A stretch of 64,000 nucleotides of DNA from Lepidostoma basale (Eukaryota; Arthropoda; Insecta; Trichoptera; Lepidostomatidae): positions 1 to 64,000 of the forward strand of contig JAHDVF020001327.1 in the NCBI GenBank assembly GCA_022606425.2. The letters run 5' to 3'. Shown piece by piece: positions 4,926 through 63,185 of the stretch. A program made the translations under genes and the position numbers. The notes beneath the pieces were generated by a model. That model was not told the origin of the DNA. It searched no databases and saw only the letters and a program-made list of their open reading frames with translations. The stretch's first letter is position 1. Every line of letters begins with the position of its first letter.

Positions 4926-5590
4926 TAAAGAAACATAATTTATTAATAGTGGTAGCCATCGCCTGAAACACATCGTGAGGTTATACTAATTTTTTTATGT
5001 ATATTTAGTTCTCCTCAAAATATTGGACTTAAAAAATAAATAAAAACTTTAACAAAAGAAAAAGCTCTTTGAATTTAAAGCAAGAAATGTTTTTGAAACG
5101 TTTCCAAAATGTTAATTTATTCACTTCGTAAACAAAATTTTACGCATAGGTTAAACTTTTACAGGAAACTAATTTTCTTTTACACATAGCATTCCTTTGA
5201 TCAATCCTTAGCAAAGATTGCTAAAGCAAATATAATAATACTTAGAAATGTTTTGTGTACATTTGTACGTGTGTGTGTCGATTTCACACACACATTCATA
5301 AAACGTACGTTCAATCTAAAGAGATATGTTCCTCATTATAAGTTTATAATATTCCGTCATTATTTACATAAGTTAAGAGAAAGGAAAATTAACATAGGCG
5401 AATCATTTCATACAAAATAACATTACGAAAATTTGTCTGAAGGTTGTATATATCATACACTGAACTTATACTGAATCCCAATTAAATATGTCGATATTAT
5501 TTATTTAAATGTATAATACCTTCGTTGTATTACAGTTTATAGAAATAAACTGATTTACGTTTCTCTAGAAAACAGATGTTTTCATTCGTA
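4926..5590. other. AT-rich unassigned stretch with a GT/AC hairpin
   Basis: At 5267-5293 gtgtgtgtcg is followed by cacacacac, forming a short hairpin. Nothing else recognised. Confidence 0.4.
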
Positions 5591-5885
5591 TTAATATATT
5601 CATTTGAATAAAATATTTACACCTAAGGATGGAAGTTACATACGAAACATGGATAATATTTTTATTTTAAACTAGTTTCGCTTGGACCCAAGCTTCATCA
5701 GTGCGATATGATAACTATTACTGTAATAACTAAGTACTGTTATTATATTGCCCTGATGAAGCTTGGATAAAAGCGAAACTAGTTGGCACGAATTATAATA
5801 ATCATATCGTGGTTAAAAACAAAACCTTTAATTATTTTGTGTCTTTCTAAAATTTAAATGTCTAACCACAAAGTGAGTTCTGCAT
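5590..5885. repeat. Family C inverted dimer carrying two hammerhead-like motifs
   Basis: Two copies of the same motif face each other: minus-strand core (tcatcag at 5695-5701, tttc at 5676-5679, palindrome ACTAGT) and plus-strand core at 5753-5759. In the minus copy, CUGAUGA, A, a GCUUG/CAAGC hairpin and GAAACUAGUU are all present. The tail ends near accacaaagtgag at 5868. Confidence 0.6.
5741..5800 (+). ncRNA. Hammerhead-ribozyme-like motif, family C
   Basis: Reading 5' to 3': stem I strand TATTATA (5741-5747) and GCC (5750-5752); core CTGATGA (5753-5759); one extra A; stem II GCTT/AAGC (5761-5764/5771-5774) with a 6 nt loop; GAAA (5775-5778); palindrome CTAG (5779-5782); TT, giving cleavage triplet GTT (5782-5784); then GGC (5785-5787) and TATAATA (5794-5800), which pair with both stem I blocks across an internal loop of 2 and 6 nt. 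All strictly conserved hammerhead positions are present. The extra A between core and stem II is unusual, and stem III could only be made by two molecules or a very small hairpin. Confidence 0.6.
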
Positions 5886-5937
5886 TTGAAATTTTAATTT
5901 TAATTTTTAAAAGTATTTAATCATTTAAGTGGATTGT

Positions 5938-6600
5938 AACGCCCTTCGGAGCCGAGTGCTCTGACTGTCATTACGAAGGTCCTGGGTTCGATTCTCGGAG
6001 ATGAAAGTGTGATTGTCACATGAGGGTATTATTTGCAAACCCGGCAAACTCCACCAACAATCAAAAGTGAATTATGAATTGGGTCTTATTCATAATACAT
6101 TTGCACACAATTTTTATTGATTTTCAGTTTCAAATTCGGCTTCATTCTGAAGAATTTTGCTATTAAAATATAGGGTATGTTGCAAACATGGTAACCTCCA
6201 CTTGAGTGTTGCAAAGCTGGCAAACTCCAAAATGAAATTCATTATTTTACTTTAATTATCAACATAATGAAGATTATTTCATGGCTGATTACTTTTAATA
6301 TACTAACTGATTGAGATGAAAAAAATAAATATCGTAAAAAAGCGCATTTTATTAGCGTATCAGTTTTTTGCGATATACTCAATACATCTAATGATGTATA
6401 ATAGTTTGCCAGGTTTGCAACTAATATCCTCACATTGTCATTGGTCTAGTGTAGAAAACACGTCACAATAAAATACCTATAGATTAGGTAGTATCACATG
6501 TGATGAGAAGAAATATGATAGCTATACCCTTTATATCGATTTGGCTCCCGCTGTAATGATGTAAAGAGCGATTCCACAAAATAATAAAAACAAAAATAAT
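5938..6600 (+). repeat. tRNA-derived SINE, split by a MITE
   Basis: The tRNA-like head (gccgagtgctctgactg, B box gggttcgattctcgg) ends in gtgattgtcacat, and the body resumes after the MITE at 6432 (acattgtcattggtctag...). It ends with the family's 3' part: cgatttggctcccgctg, aaagagcgattc, and an aat-rich tail. Confidence 0.8.
6022..6431. mobile_element. MITE, copy 1 (4 bp target duplication)
   Basis: 410 bp with terminal inverted repeats: GAGGGTATTATTTGCAAAC at the left, and GTTTGCAACTAATATCCTC at the right. It is flanked by ACAT at 6018-6021 and 6432-6435 and lies inside a tRNA SINE, whose sequence is restored when the insert and one ACAT are removed. Nearly identical to 59042-59446. No coding frame. 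Four-base duplications fit superfamilies such as Sola or Chapaev, but the assignment is open. Confidence 0.8.
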
Positions 6601-7200
6601 ATTATCCTTCTAAATTAACAATGGAATTCCACAGTGTTAAAGCCTTAACCTTCAATAATGTCATTCGAATATTGTATTTCAAGACCGTTAAATATAAATT
6701 TTTGATTCAGTCATTAGTTATCATGCTTACTATAGCAACGAATATATTGTAAATAAAAAGAAAAAATTTCTCCTTCAAGATGTATTTGCGCATTACACTC
6801 AATTCTAAAATATACGCTTTGAATTCTTATACGCGTGGTTTCCCCATACATTCGTTTGACATATTTGCTTATATAAATATGTATTTGCTTTAAAATATAA
6901 TAAATTCACACAAGCATGCATGTTTTTTCTAGAAATCACCATGTTTAAGGATTCAGTCAACATTTTGAAAACGTACTGACGAATTTTGGAATAAAATTTT
7001 ATCTAGCACAAAAAACATTGCATGTTTGAAACCTTTGCGTTCGTTAATAAGACACGAAATATAACCGATGCTTGTATAATAGATAGAACGGTTTTTGGAA
7101 GATTTACATTTAGAAATTGTGAATAGAAATTGTGTTTTGATCTCCCCTAAATTGAAATTTGTGGGGATCGATTTATATGCTTTACATGACAATGTAAAAT
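6600..7200. other. AT-rich unassigned stretch
   Basis: No supported feature; open frames here are short and of low complexity. Confidence 0.4.
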
Positions 7201-7204
7201 AACA

Positions 7205-7660
7205 TATATTTCTGTCCTGACATACATCTCTCGATTATTCTGCTTTCATACATCGTGTCATGCACGCACGTCGATTTCTTAGACTCCTCACGTGACCGAC
7301 ATTTAATATTTGATTGATTTGATCGTGTCAAGTTTTCCTCGGCCTTTCTCTATTTATAGTTCACCTTCACTCATTATTTCCATGTGTCAAAACCTTCTTA
7401 ACGACCCTTTCATTATTTTGTTCATAACAGTTTCATTCGAACCGCATTCACTTCTAATATTTGCATTTGACAGTCAATCATATACATATTTAACACACAT
7501 TCGTCTTAGAGATCCCATTTTTACTGTATTTATTATAATTTCATCCTTATTTTGATAGTTCCACGCTTCACTTCCATACGTAAGGGTCGGCACAAGAAAA
7601 CCATTGTGCACTGCCATCTTTGCTTTTTGGATAGACTTTTGTTTGCGATGACAACTTTAA
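7205..7660 (-). mobile_element. RTE-like LINE 3' fragment (second family), decayed
   Basis: Same layout as 27300-28180 on the minus strand (cgcacgtcgatttcttagac, cttcacttccatacgtaagg and others) with many frame breaks. Confidence 0.6.
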
Positions 7661-8274
7661 GTTACTATTTTACGAAACTACTTTTAAACTATCTTTCATA
7701 ATGGCAGTTTTGCTATTATAAACTTTTAACGTTTAGTAAGAAATAAGTTTCAATAATTCATTATTTTTATTGCTTTGCGAACCATTTATATGGTAGTTTT
7801 TCCTGGCTTTTAAACTTCATTTGAAAAGACTTTAAACGTAAATACAATTTAGAGATTTACAAAAGCTATAAAAATATTACCTTTTGTCATGAAGAACCGT
7901 TATTTTATGAACGCTATTTCACGTTGAAAACGACATAAAAAATTGACACGTAGAGTTTACGTTGTTAAATTTTTTAATTAGTTTAAAAACTTAGTTCGAA
8001 TTCTGAATACAACTAGTCCACCATTATTCAAATTTCGTTTTATCCGTCGACGTGATATTTTCTATTCTTGGAGGTACTTATTTCGAGTATTCAAATTTTA
8101 TATTATATTAAGCTAACCACGGCTCATATTTATTCAATTAAGTGGACCCGTCTTATACCATAGTGGTAAATGTGGTAAGGGTAAAATAATACTCACAAAT
8201 TAATTAACTAAACATCACGTCGTCTCGCCGAATGGGTAGGCAGAAATAATGGATCGCCAAACTGTTGCTTATTA

Positions 8275-9557: not shown

Positions 9558-10976
9558 TCAGGTCCCCCCGACGTTGGCGATCACTCCGGCGAAAACCTCC
9601 CTGTCCTGCGCTGCCCGAAACAGGTCATCCACCGTCCTCATTCCGGTCCACTCTCTAATGTTGCGCAGCCAGGACATCTGTTTTCTGCCAACTCCCCGTC
9701 TTCCCTCTATCTTGCCCTCCAATATAAGTCGGAGGAGGCGGTACTTTTCTCCACGCAGCACGTGACCCAAATATGAGACCTTTTTCACTTTGACATTCGA
9801 CAACAGCTCTCTCTTGGCTCCGGCTCTCCTAAGTACTTCGACGTTACTGACCTTTTCGGTCCAAGGTATACGAAGCATTCTTCTGTGTATCCACATTTCG
9901 AATGCTTCTAACCGATTCATTACGTTCACTTTTAGAGTCCATGTTTCACTTCCGTATAATAGAGCTGACCATATGTAAGCTTTTATCATTCTTTGTCGAA
10001 GTTTAAGATTTAAATTATCGTCACAGAAGAAGGGTCTCATCTTATAAAATGCAGCACGTGCAACTTCTATTCTACATTTCACTTCTGTATCTGGGTCGAG
10101 TGTTTTAGTAACGATACTGCTGAGGTATTTAAACTGGTCAACCATTTCGATATTTACTCCTTTTAGTCGCAAAGATGATCCAGAATAATCAAGTCTTCCA
10201 AATGACATCCACTTGGTCTTAGCGACATTTATTGTCAGACCCAATTCTTCTCCAGCCGTGTCAATCTTATTTAGGAGCTCTTGGAGATCAAGTATACTTT
10301 CAGCCAATATGACTGTATCGTCAGCATATCTGATATTATTTATAACGACTCCATTGATCTTCACTCCAAGGCTAGAGTTTTCTAGAGTTCTTTGGAAAAC
10401 TTTATTGGAGTACAGATTAAACAATAGAGGTGACAGAATACAACCTTGTCGAACTCCTCTTTGTATAGCTTTAGCCTCTGTATTTCCACTTCCATATCTG
10501 ATCTTTGCCGTTTGACACCAGTAGAGGTTTCTTATGAAATTCAGGTCCTTGGAGTCAATGTTACAGTCTTTGAGCATCTCCATGAGTGTCGTGTGCCTTA
10601 CCCTGTCAAACGCTTTTTCATAATCCATGAAGCATGCAAACACCTCTTTGCGATGATCTCGACACTTCTGTAGCAGGACATTGACTGCCAGTAGCGCTTC
10701 TCTGGTTCCGAATGCATTTCGGAATCCGAATTGTGTGTCATCTAGATCTTGCTCGCACTTGTTTCTTATTCGGGCATGTATAATTTTAAGAAACAGTTTT
10801 AATACATGACTCATTAGGCTAATCATGCGATAGTCATTACAATTCTTTGGGTGCTGCTTCTTAGGTAAGGTGACAAATATCGATTTCAGCCATTCTTGGG
10901 GGATAACCCCTGTGTCATAAATCTTATTAAATAGCCTCAGCAGGTAGTGAATATTTTCCTCATTAATCAATTTCAA
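9558..10976 (-). pseudogene. Reverse transcriptase portion of the RTE element
   Basis: The longest open frame in the window (472 codons). It contains RT palm motifs in order: NDYRMISLMSHVLK near residue 45, the first catalytic Asp in FMDYEKAFD near 117, RQGCILSPLLFN near 175, IRYADDTVILAE near 215 and FKYLSSIV near 283. Translation actually continues upstream in the same frame (AIRTSPNRKACGPDEIP, to about 11040), so the Met at 10976 is not a true start. The enzyme would prime reverse transcription at nicked genomic DNA. The frame is open but cut off from its endonuclease by frameshifts. Confidence 0.85.
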
Positions 10977-11338
10977 TAATTCCGCAGGGATTTCGTCAGG
11001 ACCACATGCTTTTCTGTTAGGAGAAGTTCTGATGGCATGTATAACTTAAGATCTGAGGATGGAGGGTCCCTCTAATTCACCGTCAATTGTGAAGTCAGTT
11101 CTATTATCTTTGAATAACTTTTCAATGTGATCTTCCCATGTCTTAAGGATTTCTTTTTCATCCAATATTAATTTATTGGAATCGTCCATCAGACATGTGG
11201 GTGTAGCCTTCCTTGTTGTCCCAGATATTTCCTTTACTTTTTTGTGAAGCCCGAATGCATTGTGGGCATGATTGAGACTTTCAAGTTCTTCACATTGACG
11301 CTTCATCCATTCCTCTTTGGCCTTTTTGATTTCCCGTC

Positions 11339-12189
11339 TTATGGTACGTTGCAGGTTTCTATAATGTTTTTCATAGCCTTCCTTCTTTCTTCCATAAGAG
11401 AGAGAATGTGATCCGTCATCCAATTTTTCTTTTTAGCCGTTCTCTCGGCCTTTAAATGATTAGTGCAGACATCTGTAAATACCGATTTCAAATTATCCCA
11501 ATGTTCATGGACCGTCTCGTCTGCGACTGCTAGTTCCCGTAATTTGATATTAAGTTCTCCGGATACTTTTTCCTTCACAGTTATGGATTCCAGTTTTCCT
11601 GTATCTATTCTCTTAACGAATTTTCTCTTGGGCACCGTTTTCAGTTTTAGAATGAGATTCGCGACAAGTGGATTGTGGTCGGATCCAACATCAGCTCCCG
11701 GATAGGTGGTAACTCTCTGAATACAATTTCTAAATCTGTGGTTAATTAGAATGTAATCAATTTGATTTCTAACAATATTATGTGCAGTTCCGTCTTGAGG
11801 TGACCTCCACGTGTAAAGTCTGCGCTTAGGTAATTTAAACCACGTGTTCATTATTATCATATCATTCTCTTGGCAGAATTCGTAAAGTCTTTCTCCCCTC
11901 TCATTACTTTGTCCCAGCCCGTATTCCCCAACAATGTTTGTCCTTGGCCTATCTTGGCATTGAAGTCACCAATTATCATATTCATTTCACCTCCTTTCAA
12001 ACTGTTAACCGTGTTGGACAGTGATTCATAAAACTTTTCAACCTCATCATCATACCTCGCCTCAGCCGTTGGTGCATACACCTGTATGATGTTGATGTCA
12101 CACGGCTGACTATGAAGTTGTAACAATACAATCCTGTCCGAGATGGGAACAAAGTTTTTGACATATTTTATGTATTCTGCGGTGACCAT
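11339..12189 (-). pseudogene. Endonuclease portion of the RTE element
   Basis: Two overlapping minus-strand frames. The switch is near 11895: one frame reads GEKDFTNSAK while the shifted frame reads ERLYEFCQENDMIIMNTW, which is the expected continuation. The N-terminal catalytic segment of the APE-type endonuclease is missing (5' truncation), but GDFNAKIG and SDHNPLV remain. Confidence 0.8.
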
Positions 12190-12194
12190 TAAAT

Positions 12195-12360
12195 AATTAA
12201 TACGAAAGAAAACGTCAGTTTTATAGAAGTTTTAATATATTTTATGGGAATGACATGTTTTGATATTGCCTTAGTAGAGCGAAACATGTCATTCCTATCC
12301 TATAAATTATAATAAAACTTCAAAAAAACTGACGTTTTCTTTTGTATTAATTGTATAATG
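12195..12360. repeat. Family G inverted dimer
   Basis: Arms begin ttaatacgaaagaaaacgtc and end gacgttttcttttgtattaa. In the middle, gggaatgacatg and catgtcattcc are complementary and enclose GCCTTAGTAGAGC then GAAACATGTC. It abuts the truncated 5' end of the RTE element. Confidence 0.65.
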
Positions 12361-15712: not shown

Positions 15713-15820
15713 TAAATAAGCACAAATAACTTAGTTAATACCACTTTATTATGAGTATATTTATTTGTCTACATGTTTCGAAAGCAATGCTTTCATATTC
15801 AGGAACAACAGTATACTGTT

Positions 15821-15863
15821 GTTCCTGAAGATGAAAGAATTGCTTTCGAAACATGTAGAAATA
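15821..15863 (+). ncRNA. Hammerhead-ribozyme-like motif, family F
   Basis: Stem I strand GTTC (15821-15824); core CTGAAGA (15825-15831), which fits CUGANGA; extra T; stem II GAAAG/CTTTC (15833-15837/15843-15847) with a 5 nt loop; GAAA (15848-15851); palindrome CATG; TA (cleavage triplet GTA, after 15857); GAA (15858-15860) pairs with TTC. Stem I is short. The inverted partner on the minus strand (core tattcag at 15796-15802) has CUGAAUA, losing the key G. Confidence 0.5.
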
Positions 15864-15905: not shown

Positions 15906-16353
15906 ATTTTTTTTAATTGTATCTCAATAGAGACGAAGACGTAAACCGGAAACTGAACATGGATGATCAAGGTGTTTACAGGACTTATGACCTGTCATTG
16001 GTTGGGTTAAGCGCACGCTTTATGTAATTACAACATTCCCCATTCCACCTTTGTTATTTGTGATCATGCATGACAAATTTTTGGAAGATGTATATATACT
16101 TCAAAATCCATATTTATCTTCACGTGGCAGTTTCAGTCAGCCATCTATGTAGATTTGGTTGCACTAGTGAATTTTTTCAAGAATTAACCTATACAACCGA
16201 CCCACTAACGCCATCTATGGATAATGATTTTCGGCATTTAGCAAACTACCCCATTAACACAATGTGAAGGTTGTTGACCAACATATTGTTAGAAGCCGCC
16301 AGGAGTATTATTCCATTCTATATGCCAAAGAATTTTGACCAGTTTTTTTTGAT
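15906..16353 (-). mobile_element. K element (SINE-like), 12 bp target duplication
   Basis: Flanked by taagttatttgt at 15894-15905 and 16354-16365. The plus-strand left end is an oligo-T run followed by aattgtatctcaatagagac, so the element's A-tail lies on the minus strand. An apparent 65-codon frame at 16070-16267 recurs at 60768-60965 only because the whole element is repeated; it is not taken as a gene. Confidence 0.75.
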
Positions 16354-19350: not shown

Positions 19351-20264
19351 GAGTATAAAATCAAGGAAGACTGAAAAAATATGACGTTTCCAAATTAATG
19401 AAGTTTCATTTTAGTTAGAAGTTCATTTTACGATTATGAAAAAAAATATATGTATGAAAAATAGGCCCGACAAATAGATCTACACGAATAATATCTATAA
19501 CACGTATTACATCTACCGTATACGGACACAAACTGGTTAAAAGCTGACCATTTCAAAATAATTGCGTAATTCCTGGTCCACTTGATAAATTTTTTAAAAT
19601 TAATACATCGAAAAAGCTTGCGTCATAACCGAAAACACGAAGTGAAATTATATTTATTAAAATAAGTTTGTATGTTTGAGTTTGATTGTAAATCATCGTG
19701 ATAACGACATATGTCCTGTTTTCGAAGGGTCCAACATTTATTGTCTACTTGAGTAACTATTATCACGTGTTTCTCTCTATTCCAAACACATTTGTCTGGC
19801 GTCCGGCGTTTTATACTCACAGGAAAAAAGATAACACTTCACGTTATAACTGGGCGGGCGGCGCGGCCTATATTGTAAATCAGCATTACGAATACCCAGG
19901 GCTTAACAATATCTATCCCACAAAGTTCATGATATGAATCTAAATGAGTCGAAAGGCGAGTCGGAATAACTATATCCGAGTAAAAATAATTCTTTTCCCC
20001 TTAAATATGCCAATGAATGGAGAATAAAGAGGAAAATCCCTAAGCTTTTCAATATTTTACACTTGTGAAAATCCATGAAAGCTCTAAATGCATATTTTAT
20101 TAAAAATAATTTAATACCCTTTTTTACTTTATTTTTACATTTCACTTTATTTGATTTTATATAACTGCAGCAAAATCAAATTTTCAGTTTGTTTTTGGAA
20201 CCCTGACCATGATCCGGCTGGAGCAAAACCAGTCGGTTTGATAACATGTAATAAAATAATTAAT
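19351..20264. other. Unassigned stretch
   Basis: No supported feature; a small GC-rich patch (gggcgggcggcgcgg) is at 19851-19865. Confidence 0.35.
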
Positions 20265-23353: not shown

Positions 23354-23404
23354 GTAACACCCGATGATGCCAAAAATAGATTGGCGAAACAGCTGTCGCG
23401 ATAC
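23354..23404 (+). ncRNA. Hammerhead-ribozyme-like motif, family B
   Basis: Stem I GTAACAC (23354-23360) pairs with GCGATAC (23398-23404) in 5 of 7 positions. Core CCGATGA (23361-23367; U4 is C); extra T; stem II GCCAA/TTGGC (23369-23373/23381-23385); GAAA (23386-23389); palindrome CAGCTG (23390-23395); TC, cleavage triplet GTC, after 23397. Confidence 0.5.
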
Positions 23405-23476
23405 TCAAAAATTGAATACTAAAAATTGGAACAACTTGTTGATAACTTTGTATTGTCACAACACTTATTTACATCG

Positions 23477-23523
23477 TATACAGACATGTTTCGGGAAAAC
23501 AGACTTCCCTTCTTCTGTGTATA
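23477..23523 (-). ncRNA. Hammerhead-ribozyme-like motif, family H (minus copy)
   Basis: Reverse complement has the same arrangement: TATACA (23523-23518), CAGAAGA (23517-23511), GGGAA/TTCCC, GAAA (23492-23489), CATG, TC, TGTATA (23482-23477). Confidence 0.5.
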
Positions 23524-23569
23524 GTTGATGAAATTTTTTTTTCATCAAAAAAAAATATATTTCATCAAC

Positions 23570-23616
23570 TATACACAGAAGAAGGGAAGTCTGTTTTCCC
23601 GAAACATGTCTGTATA
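23570..23616 (+). ncRNA. Hammerhead-ribozyme-like motif, family H (plus copy)
   Basis: Stem I TATACA (23570-23575) pairs perfectly with TGTATA (23611-23616). Core CAGAAGA (23576-23582; U4 is A); extra A; stem II GGGAA/TTCCC (23584-23588/23596-23600); GAAA (23601-23604); CATG (23605-23608); TC, cleavage triplet GTC, after 23610. Confidence 0.5.
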
Positions 23617-23719
23617 CGATGTAAATAAGTGTTGTGATAATGCAAAGTTATCAACAAGTTGTTCTAATATGAATACATAATAAGTCATGGCGAATATGGA
23701 AGAAAAATAAAAATTGGGT

Positions 23720-24079: not shown

Positions 24080-24500
24080 AATTTTAACAGTTAAAATAAA
24101 TCGATAAAACGCTTTTTTGTATCAAATGTACGAATTCTGAATTGTATTTAAAAAAAGAACATTTTATTTTTAAAAATGTTTTGCACTGCGAAGATTTCGA
24201 CAATAAGACCATAACCGTTATACTTCGATCTCCGAGTTCGTAAATGGGCTCTAAAGAGCGCAAATAAATACGGCAAAGAGAGGACATTATTATTTTCACG
24301 GTGTGATGGCAGCGGCTCATGAGCATTGAAAACACATCGGTATAATATGATGTTTTGGTAGGGTCTGAGCCGGCACAAAAAATATACCCACACGCTCGTA
24401 GGAATCCTCTATAAAAATATTTGTTCTAAGAAACGCCTACCGTTCAAATTACGTGACCTTTACTGCAGTAGCGGTTAGTGTACGTAAAAAAATGTGTACA
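24080..24500. other. Unassigned stretch
   Basis: No supported feature. Confidence 0.3.
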
Positions 24501-24509
24501 TTGATAAAG

Positions 24510-24585
24510 CTAATGTTATAAACGAAACATGTCTGTGTTAAATGAAATCAAGTGTTGTAATACTTAGTGCAGTTGTATTTATTGA
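24510..24585 (+). repeat. Family I hammerhead-like element, degraded
   Basis: ttgataaagctaatgttata, then aacgaaacatgtctgtg: core UUGAUAA, broken hairpin, GAAACATGTC. Related to 44695-44880. Confidence 0.4.
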
Positions 24586-24995
24586 AATCTTTTTTTCATT
24601 TATTATTTCTTTCATGATTTTGTAATAAAAAAAATCCTTTTCAAAATTTTGCTTTGCCTTTGTTAAAAAAATATATTTGCTTTGACGAACTACTATAAAT
24701 TCGTATTTGACATTTATGTTTTGTTTTTTCGTAAAAAAAACATAGATCGGAATTGTGGAATACCACTAGCATTATTTATTACTTGTGATTGTTTTATTTA
24801 ATGTATAGAATGGCCATTTGCTTCGTGTCTCAAAATATCAACAGTTCTTTTGCCAAGCCACCCGAAAATCTCCCATTCGAAATCTTTTCAAAACATGTAA
24901 AATTAACCCTTAAATCTATTGTAAGTGTTCTGTCCTTGGTATTTTATCTAATTTTAATTAATCCACTTTACATGCTAAGGTTCTAATCGTTTCGT

Positions 24996-25041
24996 TTTCC
25001 TGAAGATGACGTTGTATAACCTTCGGAACATGTCGAGAAAA
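24996..25041 (+). ncRNA. Hammerhead-ribozyme-like motif (CUGAAGA core)
   Basis: Stem I TTTTC (24995-24999) pairs with GAGAA (25035-25039) with one wobble. Core CTGAAGA (25000-25006) fits CUGANGA; extra T; hairpin GACGTT...AACCTTC (25008-25024) with a mismatch; GGAA (25025-25028) in place of GAAA; CATG; TC after which cleavage is expected (25034). Near-complete, with one substitution in the 3' core. Confidence 0.45.
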
Positions 25042-27483: not shown

Positions 27484-27990
27484 TCATTAACTAACTAACT
27501 AACTAACTAACCATCACGCCATTTCCCCGGAGGGGTAGGCAGAGAGGATGGATCGCCACACTAGCCTGTCCTGGCATACTTCTCGAGCTTCCTCTACATC
27601 CATACATCTTATCATGCACGCACGTCGATTGTTCCGACTTCGAATGTGGTCGCCTTTTAGTAATTGATTAATTTGGTCATGCCATGTTTTCCTCGGTCGT
27701 CCTCGGCTTCTTTTCCCACTCACACTGCTTGTGTACAACTTTTTAACCATTCTACTCTCATCCATTCGTTCCATATGTCCGAACCACCTCAGGGATCCTT
27801 TTTTAATTTTATTCATGATGCAGTCATCTGCCTTACATTTCTTTCTTATTTCATCGTTCGGTATTCTATCATACAAGTTTTCACGCACATTCTTCTCAGT
27901 GATCTCATTTCTACGGCGTTTATCCTGCTTTCATCCTTCTTTTACCAGCTCCAAGCTTCACTTCCAAACATGAGGGTTCGCACTAGAAAG
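27484..27990 (-). mobile_element. RTE-like LINE, C-terminus and 3' end (second family)
   Basis: The minus-strand frame 27888-27514 encodes RENLYDRIPNDEIRKKCK, then LRWFGHMERMD, RGRPRKTWHDQINQL and REVCQDRLVWRSILSAYP. This is the C-terminal tail of an endonuclease/reverse-transcriptase polyprotein. It ends at the 3' terminus with the repeated word taac/ctaa. The upstream part (EMRS...) continues to about 27990. This is the best-preserved copy of a family whose 3' ends occur about a dozen times in the window. Confidence 0.75.
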
Positions 27991-28984: not shown

Positions 28985-29100
28985 GATTGAATAATTAATA
29001 CGAATAAAAACGTCAGTTTTCTAGAAGTTTTATTATATTTAATGGGAATGACATGTTTCGCCCTTCTAAGGCATTATCAAATGTGACGAAACTTTGACTC
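28985..29100. repeat. Family G half-element
   Basis: attaatacgaataaaaacgt, then tctagaagttttattata, gggaatgacatgtttcgccc and ttctaaggcattatcaaatg: one arm only. The minus strand has UUGAUAA, U, GCCTT AGA AGGGC, GAAACATGTC. Confidence 0.65.
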
Positions 29101-31069: not shown

Positions 31070-31395
31070 TATCAATTAAAACACTGTTTTTTCCACTTTT
31101 GAGTTTATTTTTCTCGACAATTTTCGAAAGCTTACACCTTCATTATCGGAAGAATGATATAAACTAACCAAAATTATTACAAACTGAGTGACAACATAGA
31201 ATTATATATAACATGTGTTAGTTAACTTGGCTAGTACTAGGGATATTACAATAGACATATCAATGGGTTAAATTTTGAAAGAATTTTTAGATGAAAGTAT
31301 TGAGTTGAGGGTGTTTTATTGCTCTATGGTAAAAATAAACTCAAAAGTTGAAAAAATAGTGTTTTAATTCATAAAAATTCGTCATTGTGGAACTC
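31070..31395. repeat. Family A element
   Basis: The minus strand from 31150 has CCGATAA, TGAAGGTGTAAGC, TTTCGAAAATTGTC, GAGAAAAATAAACTC and AAAAGTGGAAAAAACAGTGT. The last three words recur at 43370-43415, 52185-52350, 57325-57345 and 62325-62355. Confidence 0.55.
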
Positions 31396-31964: not shown

Positions 31965-32222
31965 TTTGGCCGAAACATTTTAAACTGTTAAATTAAATAA
32001 CTTTGTTTTTGTATCACAATTGTATTTAATTTTACGCGACAGCTGTTTCATCAACCTATGTTGACATCATCACATTGACAAAACCATCAAACTATGTTGA
32101 CATCATGATTGTAGCACCTAATCATGTCAACATAGGTTGATGAAACAGCTGTCACGTAAAATAAAATACAATTGTGGTATTAAAAACAAAGTTATTTAAT
32201 TTAACAGTTTAAACTTTAATTA
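31965..32222. repeat. Family B inverted dimer
   Basis: Arms: ttaaactgttaaattaaata ... ttatttaatttaacagttta. Plus copy: CTAATCA core, GTCAAC/GTTGAT hairpin, GAAACAGCTGTC near 32121-32155. Minus copy: GTGATGA core, same hairpin, GAAACAGCTGTCGCG near 32042-32075. Each has one or two core changes. Confidence 0.7.
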
Positions 32223-35104: not shown

Positions 35105-35147
35105 ATATCACTTAAGAAGGACCGGTTATCCGAAATATGTCTGATAT
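35105..35147 (+). ncRNA. Hammerhead-like motif, family E
   Basis: Stem I ATATCA (35105-35110) pairs perfectly with TGATAT (35142-35147). Core CTTAAGA (35111-35117; G5 is T); extra A; hairpin GGA/TCC; GAAA (35132-35135); TATG; TC, cleavage triplet GTC, after 35141. Followed by a tail ending near acaacacaaagcatggcgaa at 35212. Confidence 0.4.
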
Positions 35148-36269: not shown

Positions 36270-36790
36270 TAACATTTTAAACTGTTAAATTAAACAACTT
36301 TTTTTATGTATCACAATTGAAATTTTATTTTTATTTTACGCGACAGCTGTTTTATCAACCTATGTTGACATCAAGTGTTACAATAATATATAAAATGTCA
36401 AATATTAGTGATTTTTCGAATCTTTATGTGTATTTGTTCCTATGTTGATTTGAATAATTTTGAATTAACATTTCGAGAAATTAATATAGGAATAAATACA
36501 CGTAAAGATTCGAAAAATTACGAAAATTTGACATTTGATATATTATTGTAACACCTGATGAAGTCGACATAGGTTGACGAAAAAGCTGTCGCGAAAAATA
36601 AAAATACAATTACGATATATAAAACAATTTTTTTTTTTATTATTTAAACTTCCATCAAGATATGTTGATGGAAAATATGTTGATGTTTCCATCAAGATAG
36701 GTTGACGAAAAAGCTGTCGCGAAAAATAAAAATACAATTACGATATATAAAACAAAGTTTTTTTTTTATTATTTAAACTTCCATCAAGGT
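36270..36790. repeat. Family B elements (dimer plus partial duplication)
   Basis: Contains the strong motif at 36548-36600 and a partial duplicate at about 36690-36760 that repeats ataggttgacgaaaaagctg and the tail. Confidence 0.65.
36548..36600 (+). ncRNA. Hammerhead-ribozyme-like motif, family B
   Basis: GTAACAC (36548-36554); core CTGATGA (36555-36561), canonical; extra A; stem II GTCGAC/GTTGAC (36563-36568/36573-36578), six pairs with one G-U; loop ATAG; GAAA (36579-36582); AAGCTG (first base changed from C); TC, cleavage triplet GTC, after 36590. Stem I is weak (CxC with GxG). Confidence 0.5.
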
Positions 36791-37244: not shown

Positions 37245-37500
37245 AAAAACCAAACATGTTTCGGGCACACAAGCCTTTACCGCAGATTTATATATATTTT
37301 TTAATCTGTCAAAACTGGCCACCTTCATGAAATAAAAAAATGTATATTTTTAAAATTTATTAAAATCACCGATGAAGGGCTTGTGTGTCCGAAACATGTT
37401 GGGTTTTTATTTATTATTTTTTAATAAAGGGTGTGTTGTATACAAAGTATAAAAATAAGAAACATTAAACATTCGCAACACAAAGTTATGGCGATTTTAG
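37245..37500. repeat. Family E2 inverted dimer
   Basis: The minus half (aaacatgtttcgggcacaca, 37255-37274) and the plus half (37361-37409) face each other. The tail ends cgcaacacaaagttatggcg near 37478. Confidence 0.6.
37361..37409 (+). ncRNA. Hammerhead-like motif, family E2
   Basis: Stem I TAAAATC (37361-37367) pairs with GGTTTTTA-type sequence (37402-37409). Core CCGATGA (37369-37375; U4 is C); extra A; stem II GGGC/GTCC with one G-U; GAAA (37391-37394); CATG; TT, after which cleavage is expected (37400). Confidence 0.4.
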
Positions 37501-39959: not shown

Positions 39960-40470
39960 TTAATAATTAAATAAAACTATGTTTTTTAATTACATTCACT
40001 TTTGTCTTTATTTCGACAGTGACCGGTTTCGCCAGGCTTGCCGGCATCGACAGACTGGTGACACTATTGTAAACTTAGTATTTTATATACATACAGATCA
40101 GGGGTGGTAAACATGATTCTATACAAAAATAATCTTCAAATATTTATGTATTATAAAATTTACTGAATTTAAATATTGGTATTATAGGTATTCAAGAAGA
40201 TTCTTATTCAATACAATGGATTTAAAATTTTATTATCACTTACATATTCATATTTATAACGTTTGAAAAAATGTTTTTTTTTTGTTTTTATTGTTACTAA
40301 ATTTAAATATTAAATGTTTTTGTTCTTGCCGTAAGGTTGGCATCGCCTTATTCGGTTTTCCCCATCCATATAGCTGCTAAGGTCTTAGCTAAGGTAACCG
40401 AATAAGGCGATGCCAACCTTACGGAACAAGAAATCTAAGGTAACCGAATAAGGCGATGCTAAATTATTAT
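39960..40470. repeat. Family D element, copy 2
   Basis: Matches 1594-2040 along its length. Its right end carries a second inverted and partly repeated block: ccgtaaggttggcatcgcc against ggcgatgccaaccttacgg, then aaccgaataaggcgatgc twice. Confidence 0.7.
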
Positions 40471-40779: not shown

Positions 40780-41085
40780 AAACACTGCTTTTTCCACTAT
40801 TAAGTTTATTTTTCTCGACATGTTTCGAAGGTTTGACACATTTATTTTCGGGAGAACGATTCGAACGACTTCTAAATATGTCGTACTTATTTTTACGAAA
40901 TTAAAAAGGGTAGTAATTAAAAAAGTAGTTTTACACAGTGTTAAATTTTATTCCGAATACACATTGGAATTACACATTAATACCGCCTTTATATTGAATA
41001 AAAAAGTAATTTTTTATTTTTACTTTTGAGTTTATTTTTCTTGCCATGTTTCGAACTATTACTCCTTGATATTTAAAAAATCAAT
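40780..41085. repeat. Family A elements, degraded
   Basis: aacactgctttttccactat, aagtttatttttctcgaca, tgtttcgaaggtttgacac: minus-strand A words, followed by a second weaker set near 41020-41060. Confidence 0.5.
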
Positions 41086-43074: not shown

Positions 43075-43440
43075 ATTAAAGAGTCCATTGTCCTGGCCAA
43101 AACACTATGATTCTTCAAATACGTATTATGACTGTTAAAATATAAAACGCTGTTTACGGTATCACAATTTATTTTTTAATATTTTCTTTTCGAGGCAGCT
43201 GTTTCGTCTTGAAAAAAAAATGAAAAATTCTGGATAAACTTAAGGCGTTAACACTGTGGAATTCCATAATAACGTATTTATATGAATTAAAACACTGTTT
43301 TTTAATCGGGAAAACGATATACAAAATTATATCGTTCTCCCAATGATGAAGGTGCAAGCCTTCGAAACATGTCGATAAAAGTAAACTAAAAAGTGGAAAA
43401 AACAGTGTTTTAATTCATAAAAATCCGTAAAAAATTCTGA
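43075..43440. repeat. Family B fragment followed by a family A element
   Basis: gagtccattgtcctggccaa, tcgaggcagctgtttcgtct (B), then aacactgttttttaatcggg and the motif at 43335-43378, then aaaaagtggaaaaaacagtg (A). Confidence 0.6.
43335..43378 (+). ncRNA. Hammerhead-like motif, family A
   Basis: TTCTC (43335-43339) against GATAA (43374-43378), four of five pairs. Core CCAATGA (two changes); extra T; stem II GAAGG/CCTTC (43348-43352/43359-43363) with loop TGCAAG; GAAA (43364-43367); CATG; TC, triplet GTC, after 43373. Confidence 0.35.
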
Positions 43441-44689: not shown

Positions 44690-44885
44690 GTATTATGACA
44701 CTTTATTTCACTTATCACAGACATGTTTCGGTTATAATACAACCATTTCCAATATACAAAATATGAACCTAAAAATTTGAAAATTGAAAAAGGTTATGAT
44801 ATAACCGAAACATGTCTGTAATTAGTGGAAATAGGTTTTGTAATACTTAGCGTAGTTATATCTATTCAAACACAAGAACTACACG
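44690..44885. repeat. Family I inverted dimer, hammerhead-like
   Basis: Plus copy: TTGAAAA (44784-44790), A, GGTTAT/ATAACC hairpin with loop GAT (44792-44806), GAAA (44807-44810), CATGTC. Minus copy near 44713-44755 has GGTT/AACC. Hairpin and 3' core are intact; the 5' core is changed at C3 and G8. Confidence 0.45.
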
Positions 44886-46909: not shown

Positions 46910-47110
46910 ATATAACCCATTGTTTTGGCCGAATCACTATGATACTTTTTTAAATGATTTAATATTGAAACACTGTTATTACACGTATCCGAATTTATTC
47001 TTATAAGATTCTCGTGACAGCTATTTCGCAGTTGTTTTTAGCACCTGATGATGCCGACATAGGTTGGTGAAACAGCTGTTGCGACTATCACATAAAAATA
47101 AATTGTAATA
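46910..47110. repeat. Family B inverted dimer
   Basis: acccattgttttggccgaat, then a minus half (cgtgacagctatttcgc, 47013-47029) and the plus motif at 47039-47087. Confidence 0.6.
47039..47087 (+). ncRNA. Hammerhead-ribozyme-like motif, family B
   Basis: Stem I: TAG (47039-47041) with CTA (47085-47087), and CxC with GxG next to the core. Core CTGATGA (47045-47051), canonical; extra T; stem II GCCGAC/GTTGGT (47053-47058/47063-47068), six pairs counting two G-U; loop ATAG; GAAA (47069-47072); CAGCTG; TT (triplet GTT), cleavage expected after 47080. Confidence 0.5.
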
Positions 47111-49059: not shown

Positions 49060-49260
49060 TTATTTAAAAAAAAAACATTTAAACAATCATGTTTCGGAAG
49101 CCCCAGCCCTTCATCATTGTAGTAAATATTATATGTACAAAATAAATATTTAAATAAATTTTAATGTGGTCAGTTTTGACAGTTGTTAAAAATATTTTTA
49201 TTTCTATTTTAATTCAAGTGTTGTGCTTCAAAGTAAAAAATAGTGTATAGTTATAAATCC
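49060..49260. repeat. Family E-like element
   Basis: The minus strand at 49082-49120 has AATGATGA, AGGGC, CTTCC, GAAACATGATT; the hairpin is imperfect. Confidence 0.4.
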
Positions 49261-49849: not shown

Positions 49850-50330
49850 TTTTTTTAAAATATTATTTGTATATACAACACAAACTTAAAAAAAAAATTA
49901 ATTACATATCAGACATATTTCGGACTACCGGTCCTTCTTCATTGATACATATTATAAAGATACATATTTAAAATTGTAAATAAATGTTTATAAATGTATT
50001 ATAAAAATATTATAAAATATTATGATCAGTTTTGACAGATGTTATAAAGATGTATTTTGGAAGTTTATGCTTTTGTTATAACAAATATTATGAATCAGTT
50101 AAATTTTTTAAATAATAATTAAACGTACTTAATCAGGTTATCAGGGGATCAGGTAATTACTTACAACAAAGGAAATAAATCAAAGATTGGACTTGACGTT
50201 ATATTATACATATTTGCTTTTTTAACTTCTAAATGTTCGAGATTGCTCAAAGTTATATACTATCTATTATTAATATACTAAATTTCAACGCCATTATCTT
50301 TATTAAATTTGTTTAGAATGACATGTTCAT
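49850..50330 (-). repeat. Family E element, copy 1 of a 0.45 kb repeat
   Basis: Shared blocks with 53745-54160: gttttgacagatgttataaa, acaacaaaggaaataaatca, gagattgctcaaagttatat, atctttattaaattt. Confidence 0.65.
49907..49947 (-). ncRNA. Hammerhead-like motif, family E
   Basis: On the minus strand: TATCA pairs with TGATA (stem I); core ATGAAGA (C3 is A); extra A; stem II GGAC/GTCC with loop CGGTA; GAAA; TATG; TC, triplet GTC. Hairpin and stem I are intact. Confidence 0.4.
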
Positions 50331-50789: not shown

Positions 50790-51345
50790 TAAATACCCTC
50801 CACGTTTAGATTATTGCAACGGAATGTACGCTGGATTGCCAAATAATCAATTAAGTAGAATACAAAGCGTATTCAATGCCCGATTGATTATGGGGCAACA
50901 AAAATACTGTCATATTACGCCGCTCCTGAAGGAACTTCACTGGCTTAAAATTCGAGAGCGAGTAAAATACAAATTATTTTTGACAGTGTTTAAGGTTTGA
51001 CACCAGAGAGCGCCAGCGTATGTAACGGACCTCTGCATGACGACACCCATGCCAACGGAAAGGCAACGTTCACTCCGCCCAGTAGAAACAAGTGCAAACA
51101 ACATAACGATTTCAGTCAGAGCGAATAAAGCAAGTTTCTATGATCGTGCTTTCATCGTTGCGGGTCCATTGGCGTGGAATAGCCTCCATGTTAGTATTAA
51201 GTATAAAGATAGTGACGTTAAATTTAAGAAACTTCTAAAGACTGCACTGTTCGGTTAGTCCTAGTGCGCCCTTGGAGTAATTGATTTTACAAAACAGCGC
51301 ACTTAAAATATAAGTCATCAAAATAATAATCATAATAATGCTTGC
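50790..51345 (+). mobile_element. L2/CR1-like LINE C-terminus and 3' UTR
   Basis: The plus strand reads DYCNGMYAGLPNNQLSRIQS, then HWLKIRERVKYKLFLTVFK. The frame 51037-51258 gives SFYDRAFIVAGPLAWNSLH, then KFKKLLKTALFG, the C-terminal signature. The 3' UTR has cgcccttggagtaattg and ends in an aat-rich tail. Confidence 0.8.
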
Positions 51346-52114: not shown

Positions 52115-52370
52115 AAACTTAAGGCGTTAACACTATGGAATTCCATATTTACGAATTTAAATAAAAATATACACCATTTTTTTCACTTCAAGTTTATTTT
52201 TCTCAACATGTTTGGACGGTTTTACACCTTCGTCATTGGGAGAGCAATATCGACTTGCTATATATCTCTTTCTTGAGTGTTGAGCCTTTGAAACTAGTCG
52301 AGAAAAAATGAACTCAAAAGTGGAAAATAAGTAGAAAAAACAGTGTTTTTCAAATTCGTCATTTATTCGT
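52115..52370. repeat. Family A inverted dimer, degraded
   Basis: The minus half has aagtttatttttctcaacat and ggacggttttacaccttcg. The plus half ends tcgagaaaaaatgaactcaa and aaaacagtgtttttcaaatt. Confidence 0.5.
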
Positions 52371-54269: not shown

Positions 54270-54355
54270 GCTTTCACACCACTTTATTTTGTTTTATCGA
54301 ACCAACCGGTTTCGCTTATGCTAAAACTTTGTCAGGTTTACAAAAACTCATTATA
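54270..54355 (-). repeat. Family M element, CCGG-type hammerhead-like
   Basis: Minus strand: CTGACAA, A, GTTT/AAGC hairpin, GAAACCGGTTGG. The related minus-strand copy at 58430-58510 is further decayed. Confidence 0.4.
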
Positions 54356-57129: not shown

Positions 57130-57680
57130 TCAACTCAATACTTTCATCTAAAAATCCTTTCAAAATATAACCAATTGATACGTCTATTGTTATCTCCCTA
57201 GTACTAGCCAAGTCAACTAACACATGTTATATATAATTCTAGGTTCTTGCACTCAGTTTGTAATAATTTTGGTAAGTTTGTATCGTTTTCCCGATGATAA
57301 TGGTGTAAGCCTTCGAAACATGTCGAGAAAAATAAACCCAAAAATGAAAAAAAAAAAAAAGTTTTAATTCATAAAAAATCGATATTATTTTGAGATAATC
57401 TTTAGGGTAACCCCTAAAGATTATCTCAAAACACTATGAAATTCCATAATAACGATTTTTTTGTGAAGATAATCACTGTTTTTTCCACTTTTGAGTTTAT
57501 TTTTCATGGACATGATTCTTAGTGTTTATTATTCGATATAAATTCAATTCATATCGTTCCCCCGATGCTGAAGGCATTGGTGATTGGTGGAAAATAAGCT
57601 CAAAAGTGGTTGATGGATGATGGAAAATAAGCTCAAAAATGCATTTCGTTATCGAAAGAAAAAAAATTCGTTTCAAAAGA
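57130..57680. repeat. Family A elements (at least two)
   Basis: Motif at 57286-57329, then gggtaacccctaaagattat (inverted centre) and a second, worse copy at 57480-57620 (ccacttttgagtttattttt, cccccgatgctgaaggcatt). Confidence 0.55.
57286..57329 (+). ncRNA. Hammerhead-like motif, family A
   Basis: Stem I TTTTC (57286-57290) with GAGAA (57325-57329), one wobble. Core CCGATGA (57291-57297; U4 is C); extra T; hairpin AATGG/CCTTC (three good pairs); GAAA (57315-57318); CATG; TC, triplet GTC, after 57324. Confidence 0.4.
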
Positions 57681-59035: not shown

Positions 59036-59041
59036 TTAATT

Positions 59042-59446
59042 GAGGGTATTATTTGCAAACCCGGCAAACTCCACCAACAATCAAAAGTGAGATATGAATT
59101 GGGTCTTATTCATAATACATTTGCACACAATTTTTATTGATTTTCAGTTTCAAATTCGGCTTCATTCTGAAGAATTTTGATATTAAAATATATGGTTTGT
59201 TGCAAACATGGCAACCTCCACTTGAGTGTTGCAAAGCTGGCAACACTCCAAAATGAAATCATTATTTTACTTTAATTATCAACATAATTATGATTATTTC
59301 ATGGCTGATTTCTTTTAAAATACTAACTGGTTGAGATGAAAAAAATAAATATCGCAAAAAAGCGCATTTTATTAGCGTATCAGTTTTTTGCGATTTACTC
59401 AAAACACCTAATGATGGAGTTTGCCGGGTTTGCAACTAATACCCTC
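59042..59446. mobile_element. MITE, copy 2 (4 bp target duplication)
   Basis: 405 bp, flanked by AATT at 59038-59041 and 59447-59450, ends GAGGGTATTA and TAATACCCTC. Closely similar to 6022-6431 along its length. Confidence 0.85.
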
Positions 59447-60112: not shown

Positions 60113-60329
60113 TAATTGTATCTCAATAGAGACGAAGATGCAAATTGGAAACTGAATATGGTTGATCGAGGTTTTAGTGTTTTATTTAGTGTTACATAGT
60201 TTTATTTAATTATAAATTAAATAAAGACTTACTTCTATACGAGTAGATTGTCTAACTATCACTAGCTATTGATTTTCATGTTAAGAAAATCAAAAGCTAA
60301 TAAATTCTATACAGTTATTGGATTCAAAT

Positions 60330-61120
60330 AACCCGTTGTGGAAAGCAACGGGAAACTAGCACATTATGGGACCAAGTGGCATCTCAAAGACAAGCATAAA
60401 AAATTACACTGTGCTGCAAACCATTCTCTTGGATTGAAAAACTAGCTAAGAACCTGTTGTATCCTAAAATGTGGAAATCAATGGCAAACTTCCATATTAA
60501 AGTCCCAAGCTTGGAACAATCTTCCTTTATCCTTAGGTGCATATAATACGACAGATTAAGAAACTCATATTTTCCAAATTTCATATAAAAATTAAACTAG
60601 TATAAGTGTTTTAATTGTATCTCAATAGAGACGAAGACGTAAACTGGAAACTGAACATGGATGATCAAGGTGTTTACAGGACTTATGACCTGTCATTGGT
60701 TGGGTTAAGCGCACGCTTTATGTAATTACAAAATTCCCCATTCCACCTTTGTTATTTGTGATCATGCATGACAAATTTTTGGAAGATGTATATATACTTC
60801 AAAATCCATATTTATCTTCACGTGGCAGTTTCAGTCAGCCATCTAAGTAGATTTGGTTGCACTAGTGAATTTTTTCAAGAATCAACCTATACAACCGACC
60901 CACTAACGCCATCTATGGAGAATGATTTTCGGCATTTAGCAAACTACCTTATTAACACAATGTGAAGGCTAGTATAAGTGTGTTTATTTTATTATATTAT
61001 TTTTTTACCGATCGCGAGAATCAGATGCAGATTTTTACATTTAAAACACGTCATAATGCACCATTAAGGTGATTACATCACGAAGCTGGCGCTTTAAAAT
61101 ATAGCATATTACTATTATCA
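60330..61120 (+). mobile_element. L2/CR1-like LINE 3' part, split by a K element
   Basis: Remnant protein sequence upstream of 60609 (aacaatcttcctttatcctt), and the 3' UTR resumes after the K insertion with accgatcgcgagaatcagat, then gcaccattaaggtgattaca. Confidence 0.65.
60610..60968 (-). mobile_element. K element, 13 bp target duplication
   Basis: Flanked by ctagtataagtgt at 60597-60609 and 60969-60981. The plus-strand left end is tttaattgtatctcaatag. The inner sequence is nearly the same as 15906-16260, but this copy is shorter at the far end, as expected for 5' truncation. Confidence 0.85.
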
Positions 61121-61154
61121 TATTAAAGTGACATTCCAAGAAATCAACAACAAG

Positions 61155-61919: not shown

Positions 61920-62180
61920 CTCAACGCGATTTATCCAGCGGGGAGCTTGCCTAGGTAATTCGGCGTTAATTTATTGGGCGGTCCGCTACACCACTTTAAA
62001 TTTCAAGGCGGCTGCCGGAGCAATGGTTATTCATGATTTATAAGCCATTAATCAAAGGGCCGCGCCCCCAAATCATCTGAGTCAGGAATGAGAATTAATA
62101 TACAGAGCTACCCAGTAAAACGTAAACTCTGTTCGTGTTACTTTGACCCGTGATCCATATACGAGATTGGAAATCTTTGA
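61920..62180. promoter_or_regulatory. GC-richer non-repetitive island, possible enhancer
   Basis: In an AT-rich background, ggcggtccgctacaccactt, aaggcggctgccggagcaat, then ttataagccattaatcaaag and ggccgcgcccccaaatcatc. It has homeodomain-type TTTAT/TAAT and TCF-type ATCAAAG words and no open frame. It probably lies in or after the EVA-1-like gene. Function is inferred only. Confidence 0.3.
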
Positions 62181-62264
62181 AATGTATAAGGTTTATTATC
62201 CTTCTAAAGGTAATATGTATCTTCATTATTAAAAAATATTATATTAAAATTTTAACGTATTTTA

Positions 62265-62395
62265 TTTCGTGACCATATCAGTTTATATCGTTCCCCAATG
62301 ATAAAGGTGTAACCCTTCGAAACGTGTCGAGAAAAATAAACTCAAAAGTGGAAAAACAGTATTATTAAAAAAAAAAACATCATTATGGAATTCTA
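62265..62395. repeat. Family A element
   Basis: atatcgttccccaatgataa, aggtgtaacccttcgaaacg, tgtcgagaaaaataaactca and aagtggaaaaacagt match the A order. Confidence 0.6.
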
Positions 62396-62689
62396 TAGTA
62401 ATGATACCTCAAGATAATAATGATAACGATTTTTATTTTATTACCACATTTTAAAACGAAAACGTCTGTTTCAAGAAGTTTATACAATGACTTAATTAAT
62501 CAAATAATTTTAATATGTATCTTTCAAAACTGACCACATTCATGAAAAAATGTTTATTTTGTATATTATATATTATACAAAAAATAACAAATCATTGAAT
62601 AAGGGCTTGTGTGTCGGAAATACGTTTGTATTGATTATTATTGTTTTTTAATAAACCTGGTGTTATTAAGATGTATGAAAAACGCTAGT

Positions 62690-62885
62690 TTTCAATTAGT
62701 TTTATTTTAATATTTATGTATAACATGTTTCGCCATTCTGAGACATTTTCAAAATGTTTACGCCCTTCTAAAACATTTTGAAAATGCCTTAGAAGAGCGA
62801 AACATGTCATACATAGATATTAAAATAAAAATTCTTGAAACCTATCGTTTTTCATACATATTAATAATTTAATATGGAGTTTTAC
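62690..62885. repeat. Family G inverted dimer
   Basis: Arms run aaacgctagttttcaattag ... and back. Centre: cgcccttctaaaacattttg, then aaaatgccttagaagagcga and aacatgtcat. Confidence 0.65.
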
Positions 62886-62989
62886 AACTTTGTTCAAGAA
62901 ACAATAAAAAAGGCTAGTTTTGTTTACAAAGTAATTAACATTGTTTAATGAATCCGTAAAATATTGTTTTGGCAAATATAGAAGAAAGT

Positions 62990-63185
62990 TTTATTAAAGT
63001 TAATAGGATTGACATGTGTCGCCTTTCTTAGGCATAATCAAATGTATCATGTGATACATTTGGTTATGCCTAAGATAGGCGAAACATATCATTATATGTC
63101 AAACTATAAAAAAACTTCTCTTCTTTTTTATTCATATTATTGATTTAATATGGTGTTTTACATCATTGCTCAAGAAACGATAAAT
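62990..63185. repeat. Family G inverted dimer
   Basis: Plus-strand centre 63068-63090: GCCTA AGA TAGGC, GAAA, CATATC. The hairpin keeps pairing with A-U where other copies have U-A or U-G. Confidence 0.65.

Follow-up and report, generated by a model that had tools for sequence, protein, structure and literature searches.

Minimal type I hammerhead ribozymes have reportedly been found in Penelope-like elements (PLEs) by Cervera and De la Pena in 2014 and by Lunse, Weinberg and Breaker in 2017. Motifs of this kind were analyzed here in a stretch of 64,000 nucleotides from the insect Lepidostoma basale (assembly GCA_022606425.2, contig JAHDVF020001327.1, positions 1 to 64,000), which is called the window and is contig C428 in our numbering; the genome assembly comprises 769 Mb in 1572 contigs. 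The minimal PLE hammerheads are described in PMC6155905 and PMC7761336, and the window motifs resemble them in their type I order, reduced helix III, possible dimers, position in PLE pseudo-long terminal repeats (pLTRs), and dispersed copies. In contrast to the published examples, about eleven families are present here within 64 kb, and two of them, families A and B, have deviant cores. The tertiary contact between loop I and loop II has been reported to be absent or reduced in PLE variants (PMC7761336).

Three other systems are close to the one described here. In Poseidon of Anolis carolinensis (PAc), two reverse transcriptase (RT) start sites bound a "tail", both target strands are cut and extended, and unprocessed RNA was the dominant substrate in vitro (PMC11167929). 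PAc is like the present elements in its open reading frame (ORF) with RT and GIY-YIG domains, in a hammerhead with a one-base insertion near the start codon, in a pair of neighboring RT start sites that delimit a tail, and in the cutting and extension of both target strands that we propose below. The PAc ribozyme overlaps the start of the ORF, whereas the first ATG in the tail of family A is about 80 nt past the cleavage site. Also, PAc showed no difference in start site between the strands in vitro, while the genomic insertion ends here use different sites. The Penelope elements of Adineta vaga have inverted pLTRs placed head to head, palindromic junctions, duplications of 8-10 bp, and a 31-bp tail optionally at one inverted pLTR (PMC3846280), all of which have counterparts in our insertions. 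Unlike in Adineta vaga, 43 of the 46 family A pairs have the tail at one end and lack it at the other, as do all five family B pairs, and the short family A palindromes contain the 5' leader only. Animal retrozymes also have type I hammerheads, and those of amphibians have a weak palindromic helix III and are cleaved as dimers (PMC7229834). However, retrozymes are non-coding tandem repeats, whereas the window copies are dispersed or inverted PLE pieces.

It is very probable that the window motifs are minimal type I hammerheads in the pLTR (promoter and 5' leader) of PLEs that insert by the use of two start sites, and that they are the decayed, mostly short leftovers of several PLE lineages. 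A strict descriptor was used to scan both strands: a core with at most one mismatch to CTGANGA, zero to two extra bases, a stem II of at least four perfect pairs, GAAA, a 4- or 6-base palindrome, U, and H. Thirteen matches were found, compared to a mean of 0.08 and a maximum of 2 in 100 dinucleotide shuffles, and the strand order of a type I hammerhead (stem I, CUGANGA, stem II, GAAA, stem III, UH, stem I) was present. A palindrome-free descriptor with a stem II of at least five pairs also gave 13 matches, 11 of which had one extra base; the palindrome was present in 10 of these 11, though the descriptor did not demand it. A covariance model made here from 10 representatives, with rough E-values, found 29 hammerhead-like motifs at E<=0.06, 25 of them at E<0.01, which were grouped by eye into about eleven families (A-K). 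Ten of the 29 fall in families that gave no training sequence (D, G, I, and J), and the matches of the other 19 are partly built in. An alignment of 15 representatives with MAFFT (A2) displaced families A and I by one column and was discarded; the pair count and the covariance model rest on 10 of those 15. These results confirm the claim of an earlier note on this DNA that more than twenty loci share one hammerhead plan. The span that it gave, 5590..63180, was about right, but an additional motif lies outside it at 1679-1723.

The covariance-model check proposed in that note had a divided outcome. Rfam models run over the window gave no matches at the gathering score, and at E-values up to 10 they still listed no hammerhead family; a run on one 91-base piece gave no hammerhead either. 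The Rfam hammerhead models thus miss these variants here, whereas our own model, made from them, detects them. A genome search with RF00008 found none, but it found none in the control genomes either and is, therefore, little informative. Nine other stretches of the genome (89 kb), chosen because they hold family A and searched with default filters where the filters were off for the window, gave 29 matches at E<=0.01, of which 18 were not family A. The motifs are thus common elsewhere too, at a density below that of the window. The window itself has a GC content of 28-38% per 4-kb step and is rich in repeats by repeat comparison.

Cores were often imperfect across the window motifs. The note had described the CUGANGA-like core as recurring; it was exact in 4 of the 13 strict matches and had a single mismatch in the other nine. 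Families A and B have the non-canonical cores CAGAAGA and CTGTCGA, respectively, in the copies listed, which gives reason to doubt that they would act as ribozymes. Exactly one extra base stood between the core and stem II in all 13 strict matches. The same was true of 38 of 39 distinct motifs from the window and loci L001-L075 (20 A, 17 T, and 1 G), many of which are variants of family A; the sole exception belongs to family A and was read with its helix extended. The extra base is thus as consistent as had been claimed, but it is largely explained. The anole PLE RNA, the one published sequence compared, has CUGAGGA, one U, a stem II starting GCC/GGC, GAAA, CG, and UC (PMC11167929). Because it has the same one-base insertion, the extra base is no departure from PLE hammerheads, and the range given in PMC10085705 allows for one inserted base next to the core.

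Pairing was compared with shuffled controls in the 29 model matches (28 distinct rows). In these, 83.3% of cells were paired compared to 49.5% after shuffling, and 102 cells were altered on both sides compared to 36.9 (0/500 shuffles reached either value). Two coarser measures were less informative: further pair types numbered 32 compared to 27.2 (4/500), and the number of pairs with any double change did not discriminate (8 compared to 8.0; 420/500). When the partner columns were slid by 1-3 positions, pairing fell to 31-44%. These statistics are partly built in, since the matches were chosen on stem II pairing and the alignment was fitted to the structure. Stem I, of which the descriptor made no use, is therefore the fairer test. 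Summed over 13 representatives, none of them from families F, G, or I, the stem I run was 39, compared to 13.2 when partners were shuffled (0/20000). The run was 0 or 1 in five of the 13 (D, N, K, K2, and J). By inspection, a stem I of 4-5 bp is present in copies of families F and I. Two window copies of family K have a stem I of 6 bp by inspection, which suggests that the short run in this family is due to decay. Compensatory changes were found in both stems, as the earlier note had proposed to check, and together with the shuffles and the covariance model they back its type I reading. These data support the plan as that of real type I hammerhead-like motifs of the minimal PLE variant.

The link to PLEs was made through GIY-YIG matches in the same genome (62 listed, with 150 of 541 candidates scored), which led to PLE ORFs. 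In locus L060, an open frame of 758 codons encodes RVT_1 (E=1.4e-13) and GIY-YIG (E=6.6e-5) domains; a family B hammerhead core lies 3' of the frame at 3469 (plus), and an inverted one lies 5' of it at 492 (minus). The best 120 of 1341 homologues of this ORF are 33-59% identical to it; among these 120, most have RVT_1 and at least seven have GIY-YIG by precomputed Pfam, and the named ones include the insects Phthorimaea, Euphydryas, Schistocerca, and Diabrotica. In the window, a fragment of a PLE ORF C-terminus lies at 2093..2240 (minus), found by tblastn with the L060 ORF as two pieces of 63% and 78% identity to its residues 709-758. These residues are partly inside the GIY-YIG domain, and the fragment is 5' of a family B hammerhead on the same strand (1679..1723, minus; position 1717, extra T, CCGG; E=9.4e-8). 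A second family B copy is at 40015..40059 (minus; E=1.4e-7). For family A, tblastn found PLE endonuclease sequence 5' of the hammerhead in L037 (4494-4796 and 4928-4974, both plus; 37% identity to the L060 ORF over 112 residues) and in L035 (5421-5293 and 4995-4949, both minus; 52% over 44 residues). In L053 and L057, a further type, L, which is absent from the window, follows GIY-YIG sequence at a distance of about 400 nt on the 3' side. The ORF with RT and C-terminal GIY-YIG was thus seen for family B, and endonuclease pieces only for family A. Other traits of PLEs are also present, namely pLTR pieces, inverted copies, 5' truncation, and a variable 3' tail. Judged by the neighboring ORF and GIY-YIG sequence, families A and B and type L look like promoter and 5'-leader regions of PLEs, and we infer the same origin for families C-K. 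The description of the families as unrelated is, therefore, not upheld. Their number, which had been called unusual, would largely be explained by several PLE lineages, each with its own hammerhead, and by the commonness of the motifs in the nine other stretches. PLE copies were also seen in or beside long TA repeats (L060 at 469 minus and 3492 plus; L039 upstream of 4947).

Next, the structure of the insertions was examined. The window holds one family A palindromic insertion at 23420..23717, with edges deduced from the comparisons below, in which two outward-facing copies of the PLE 5' leader stand head to head. Its hammerheads are at 23477..23523 (minus) and 23570..23616 (plus), each with the family A core, an extra A, GAAA, and CATG (both E=4.7e-10), and the target duplication TAAAAATTGG is found at both edges. 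A 156-base copy (23470-23625) gave 84 genome matches, often on both strands of one palindrome, and 17 aligned family A copies showed two outward-facing arms and a variable center. Of 43 strict family A pairs, 41 have flanks with 6 bp or more in common, compared to 9.6 after shuffling of the flanks (maximum 18 in 300 shuffles). The common strings measure 8-14 bp in 32 of these 43 pairs, a length to which the element itself may contribute one or two bases. The head-to-head copies are, therefore, single insertions that carry target duplications. No convincing duplications were found around the window pairs of families C, D, E, and I, which are old.

The outer ends of the two arms differ in a regular way. 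In family A, one end (T1) is 58 nt past the cleavage site and the other (T2) is 42 nt beyond T1; in the window insertion the minus arm ends at T1 and the plus arm at T2. Of 46 family A pairs, 30 from a query with the ribozyme and 16 from a query with the T2 arm, 43 have one T1 and one T2 end and none has two T2 ends. The ribozyme query gave 28 T1/T2 pairs out of 30. The 28 loci of the T2-arm query gave 15 T1/T2 pairs and one unclear case; at the other 12, no second arm was present in the range retrieved. L062 was dropped since its flanks are the same as those of L030, and L030 and L073, which are in similar repeats, were both kept. In family B, all five inverted pairs are T1/T2 (T1 near 58, T2 near 107), with outer ends that differ by 46-57 nt, and one of the pairs flanks the 758-codon frame. 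Duplications of 12-13 bp are present in four of these five (one of low complexity), and the fifth, L060, is in a TA repeat. The family I pair in the window also has a tail on one arm only. The tail between T1 and T2 in family A contains an ATG (ATGGCGAATATAGAAGAA), which is probably the start of the ORF. A limited literature search found no strict rule of one T1 and one T2 end in print; PMC3846280 has the tail as optional at one inverted pLTR, and our pattern is stricter than that. The association of hammerheads with PLEs was already known, and the regularity of the insertion ends is the newer part and worth following.

The inner ends of the arms provide information on the template. Of 92 arms, 47 end at -60 to -53 from the cleavage site, with a mode at -57 (18 arms). 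The TATA-like string TATATAAG is at -89, and these ends are 29-36 nt after its first T; in family B, TATATAAAGG is 36 nt 5' of the core. Arms would be expected to end at the cleavage site had cleaved RNA been copied as a rule, and mostly they do not. No arm out of 60 stops there with the ribozyme query, which selects against such arms. With the T2-arm query, 3 of 32 do (L103 at -2, L100 at +1, and L096 at +4), and four more are at -15 to -5 (L082, L086 twice, and L095). An uncleaved template would thus be the rule in this sample.

In the mechanism that we propose, PLE mRNA would start just upstream of the ribozyme, and run-off of cDNA at its 5' end is the simplest explanation of the inner ends. 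The PLE protein would open both target strands and prime cDNA on both, with one cDNA begun at each of two internal start sites. On a monomeric mRNA, the cDNAs would reach this end after about 115 or 157 nt, and their head-to-head joining would form a short palindrome. The ribozyme would usually be uncleaved, or religated, in the copied RNA. The palindromic stem III would allow a dimeric hammerhead between two RNAs or two tandem copies. We see about an even chance that a stricter rule holds, in which each integration complex makes one T1 cDNA and one T2 cDNA, one per target strand and probably from the same uncleaved mRNA, the short palindromes are run-off products on monomeric mRNA, and the hammerhead is not the source of the usual template.

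Another possible explanation, which we consider unlikely, is self-priming, where one cDNA or antisense transcript folds back and is copied to give head-to-head arms. This has been suggested for rotifer PLEs, and junction palindromes between head-to-head copies were read in this way in PMC3846280. Some fillers at the junctions repeat pieces of the arm, and seven derived substitutions are common to both arms of one insertion compared to 1.1 after shuffling (2/2000 reach this). The latter weakly favors one source RNA for both arms and would also fit a shared template RNA. However, plain copying should give equal outer ends, and the ends differ in 43 of the 46 pairs. Identity between arms within an insertion (95.7%) barely exceeds that between insertions (95.3%), a comparison masked by private mutations after insertion, and the filler at many junctions is unrelated.

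A much less likely reading is that of non-autonomous retrozymes, in which type I hammerheads are repeated in tandem and move by way of circular RNA made by the ribozyme. Animal type I hammerheads with a weak stem III are known from these elements (PMC7229834), PLEs may mobilize them (PMC7761336), and arms that cross the cleavage site would also be given by a ligated circle. However, the copies are dispersed or inverted and not tandems of 150-450 bp, apart from one direct tandem of family D with arms about 128 bp apart. Also, the arms mostly stop near -57 and do not run round a circle, and family B belongs to elements with RT and GIY-YIG.

We find it highly improbable that the copies are miniature inverted-repeat transposable elements (MITEs) or Helitron-like ends with terminal hairpins that merely resemble hammerheads. 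Near-perfect inverted repeats with flanking direct duplications are MITE-like, and a hairpin followed by CTAG resembles Helitron 3' ends. Against this, the outer ends differ by a fixed 42 nt in family A or by the 46-57 nt of family B, the centers vary, longer copies run into PLE endonuclease sequence, and stems I and II covary as in a hammerhead. A permissive descriptor could also be matched by chance hairpins where DNA is AT-rich, which the lack of Rfam hammerheads might suggest. This is refuted for the set by the excess over shuffles, the compensatory changes, and the 84 genome matches of one copy, while the weakest model matches and the descriptor matches with zero or two extra bases may be due to chance.

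Several observations weigh against minimal PLE hammerheads with two start sites. The cores of families A and B, of which the genome holds close copies, are non-canonical, and stem I is slight in family D. The PLE link was seen directly for families A and B only, plus type L outside the window. Three of the 46 family A pairs are not clean T1/T2 pairs: L004 is complex and was scored T1/T1, with a tailed arm that by eye has an internal deletion, and L070 and L098 each have one short arm and one T2 arm. In addition, 45 of 92 arms have their inner end outside -60 to -53: 20 at -69 to -61, 11 at -52 to -40, five at -70 or beyond, two at -39 to -16, four at -15 to -5, and three no more than 4 nt from the cleavage site. 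Some cleaved templates could be reflected in those arms of the T2-arm query that stop at or near this site. The TATA-like boxes were read by sight, and such strings are common in AT-rich DNA. Finally, a small palindrome (TTTTAAAA) at the inner-end cluster could favor joining there.

The other motifs in the window belong to families C-K. Family C (CTGATGA, extra A, CTAG) is at 5747..5790 (plus; E=5.1e-11; a training sequence), with an inverted partner at 5664..5707 (minus; E=5.9e-8). Family E (CTGAAGA, extra T, CATG) is similarly paired, at 15819..15863 (plus; E=7.6e-12; a training sequence) and 15764..15808 (minus; E=2.5e-8). Family D is hammerhead-like, with a CAGCTG palindrome and a weak stem I at 23355..23403 (plus; E=7.9e-4), and further copies are at 47039..47086 (plus; E=0.017) and, with a mutated palindrome, 36549..36596 (plus; E=0.054). 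An inverted family D pair at 32032..32155 has descriptor cores at 32073 (minus) and 32118 (plus); its minus member reached only E=2.2 and its plus member is absent from the model list. Two family D arms of 95% identity (36564-36638 and 36692-36766) form the direct tandem with a spacing of about 128 bp. Family F is at 43334..43379 (plus; E=7.9e-10; a training sequence), 57285..57330 (plus; E=1.8e-7), 24994..25040 (plus; E=5.2e-6), 31110..31155 (minus; E=6.4e-6), and 40811..40857 (minus; E=4.4e-5), with degraded copies at 52199..52245 (minus; E=1.5e-4) and 62289..62334 (plus; E=0.0015). Degraded hammerhead-like motifs of family G are at 29044..29086 (minus; E=0.01) and 63054..63096 (plus; E=0.041). 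Family H is at 37363..37406 (plus; E=9.2e-9), and a degraded H-like copy is at 49080..49123 (minus; E=0.0063). The inverted pair of family I consists of an arm without a tail at 44778..44822 (plus; E=1.5e-4) and an arm with a tail (GCGAATATAGAA) at 44714..44758 (minus; E=4e-4), and a third copy is at 24495..24539 (plus; E=0.0024). Family J is at 54298..54341 (minus; CCGG; E=7.8e-5) and, degraded, at 20197..20240 (plus; E=0.0021), and family K is at 49906..49948 (minus; E=9.9e-7) and 35105..35147 (plus; E=7.7e-6). Rfam microRNA matches below the gathering score (MIR6136, MIR868, mir-944, and others) at 23481-23611, 31994-32199, and 44714-44822 fall on palindromic PLE pairs and were set aside.

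Other repeats are also present in the window. The ORF of a non-LTR retrotransposon is present in pieces in different frames at 9558-12231 (minus); 9558-11045 matches RVT_1 (E=1.1e-41), and the other pieces resemble its endonuclease part. A 73-base repeat (CCATCACG..GGTAGGCAGA) has six copies, at 8191, 14933, 22391, 27490, 32760, and 48689. It is often preceded by TAAC-type repeats, and one copy overlaps the end of an ORF at 27514-27930 (minus). The 300-base repeats at 15911-16210 and 60609-60908 are 99% identical, which indicates a recent copy of some element, and further long repeats are at 6021-6320 and 59041-59340 (93% identical) and at 639-1018 and 50877-51260 (88% identical).

For annotation, such palindromes are easily taken for MITEs or microRNA precursors, as the below-threshold Rfam microRNA matches illustrate. 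The role of PLE hammerheads has been called unknown (PMC7761336), and the PLE integration pathway has been outlined in vitro only (PMC11167929). This genome holds dozens of insertions in which both ends and the center can be read. They imply that the two RT start sites divide the work in a fixed way and that the template in most cases still has an uncut ribozyme.

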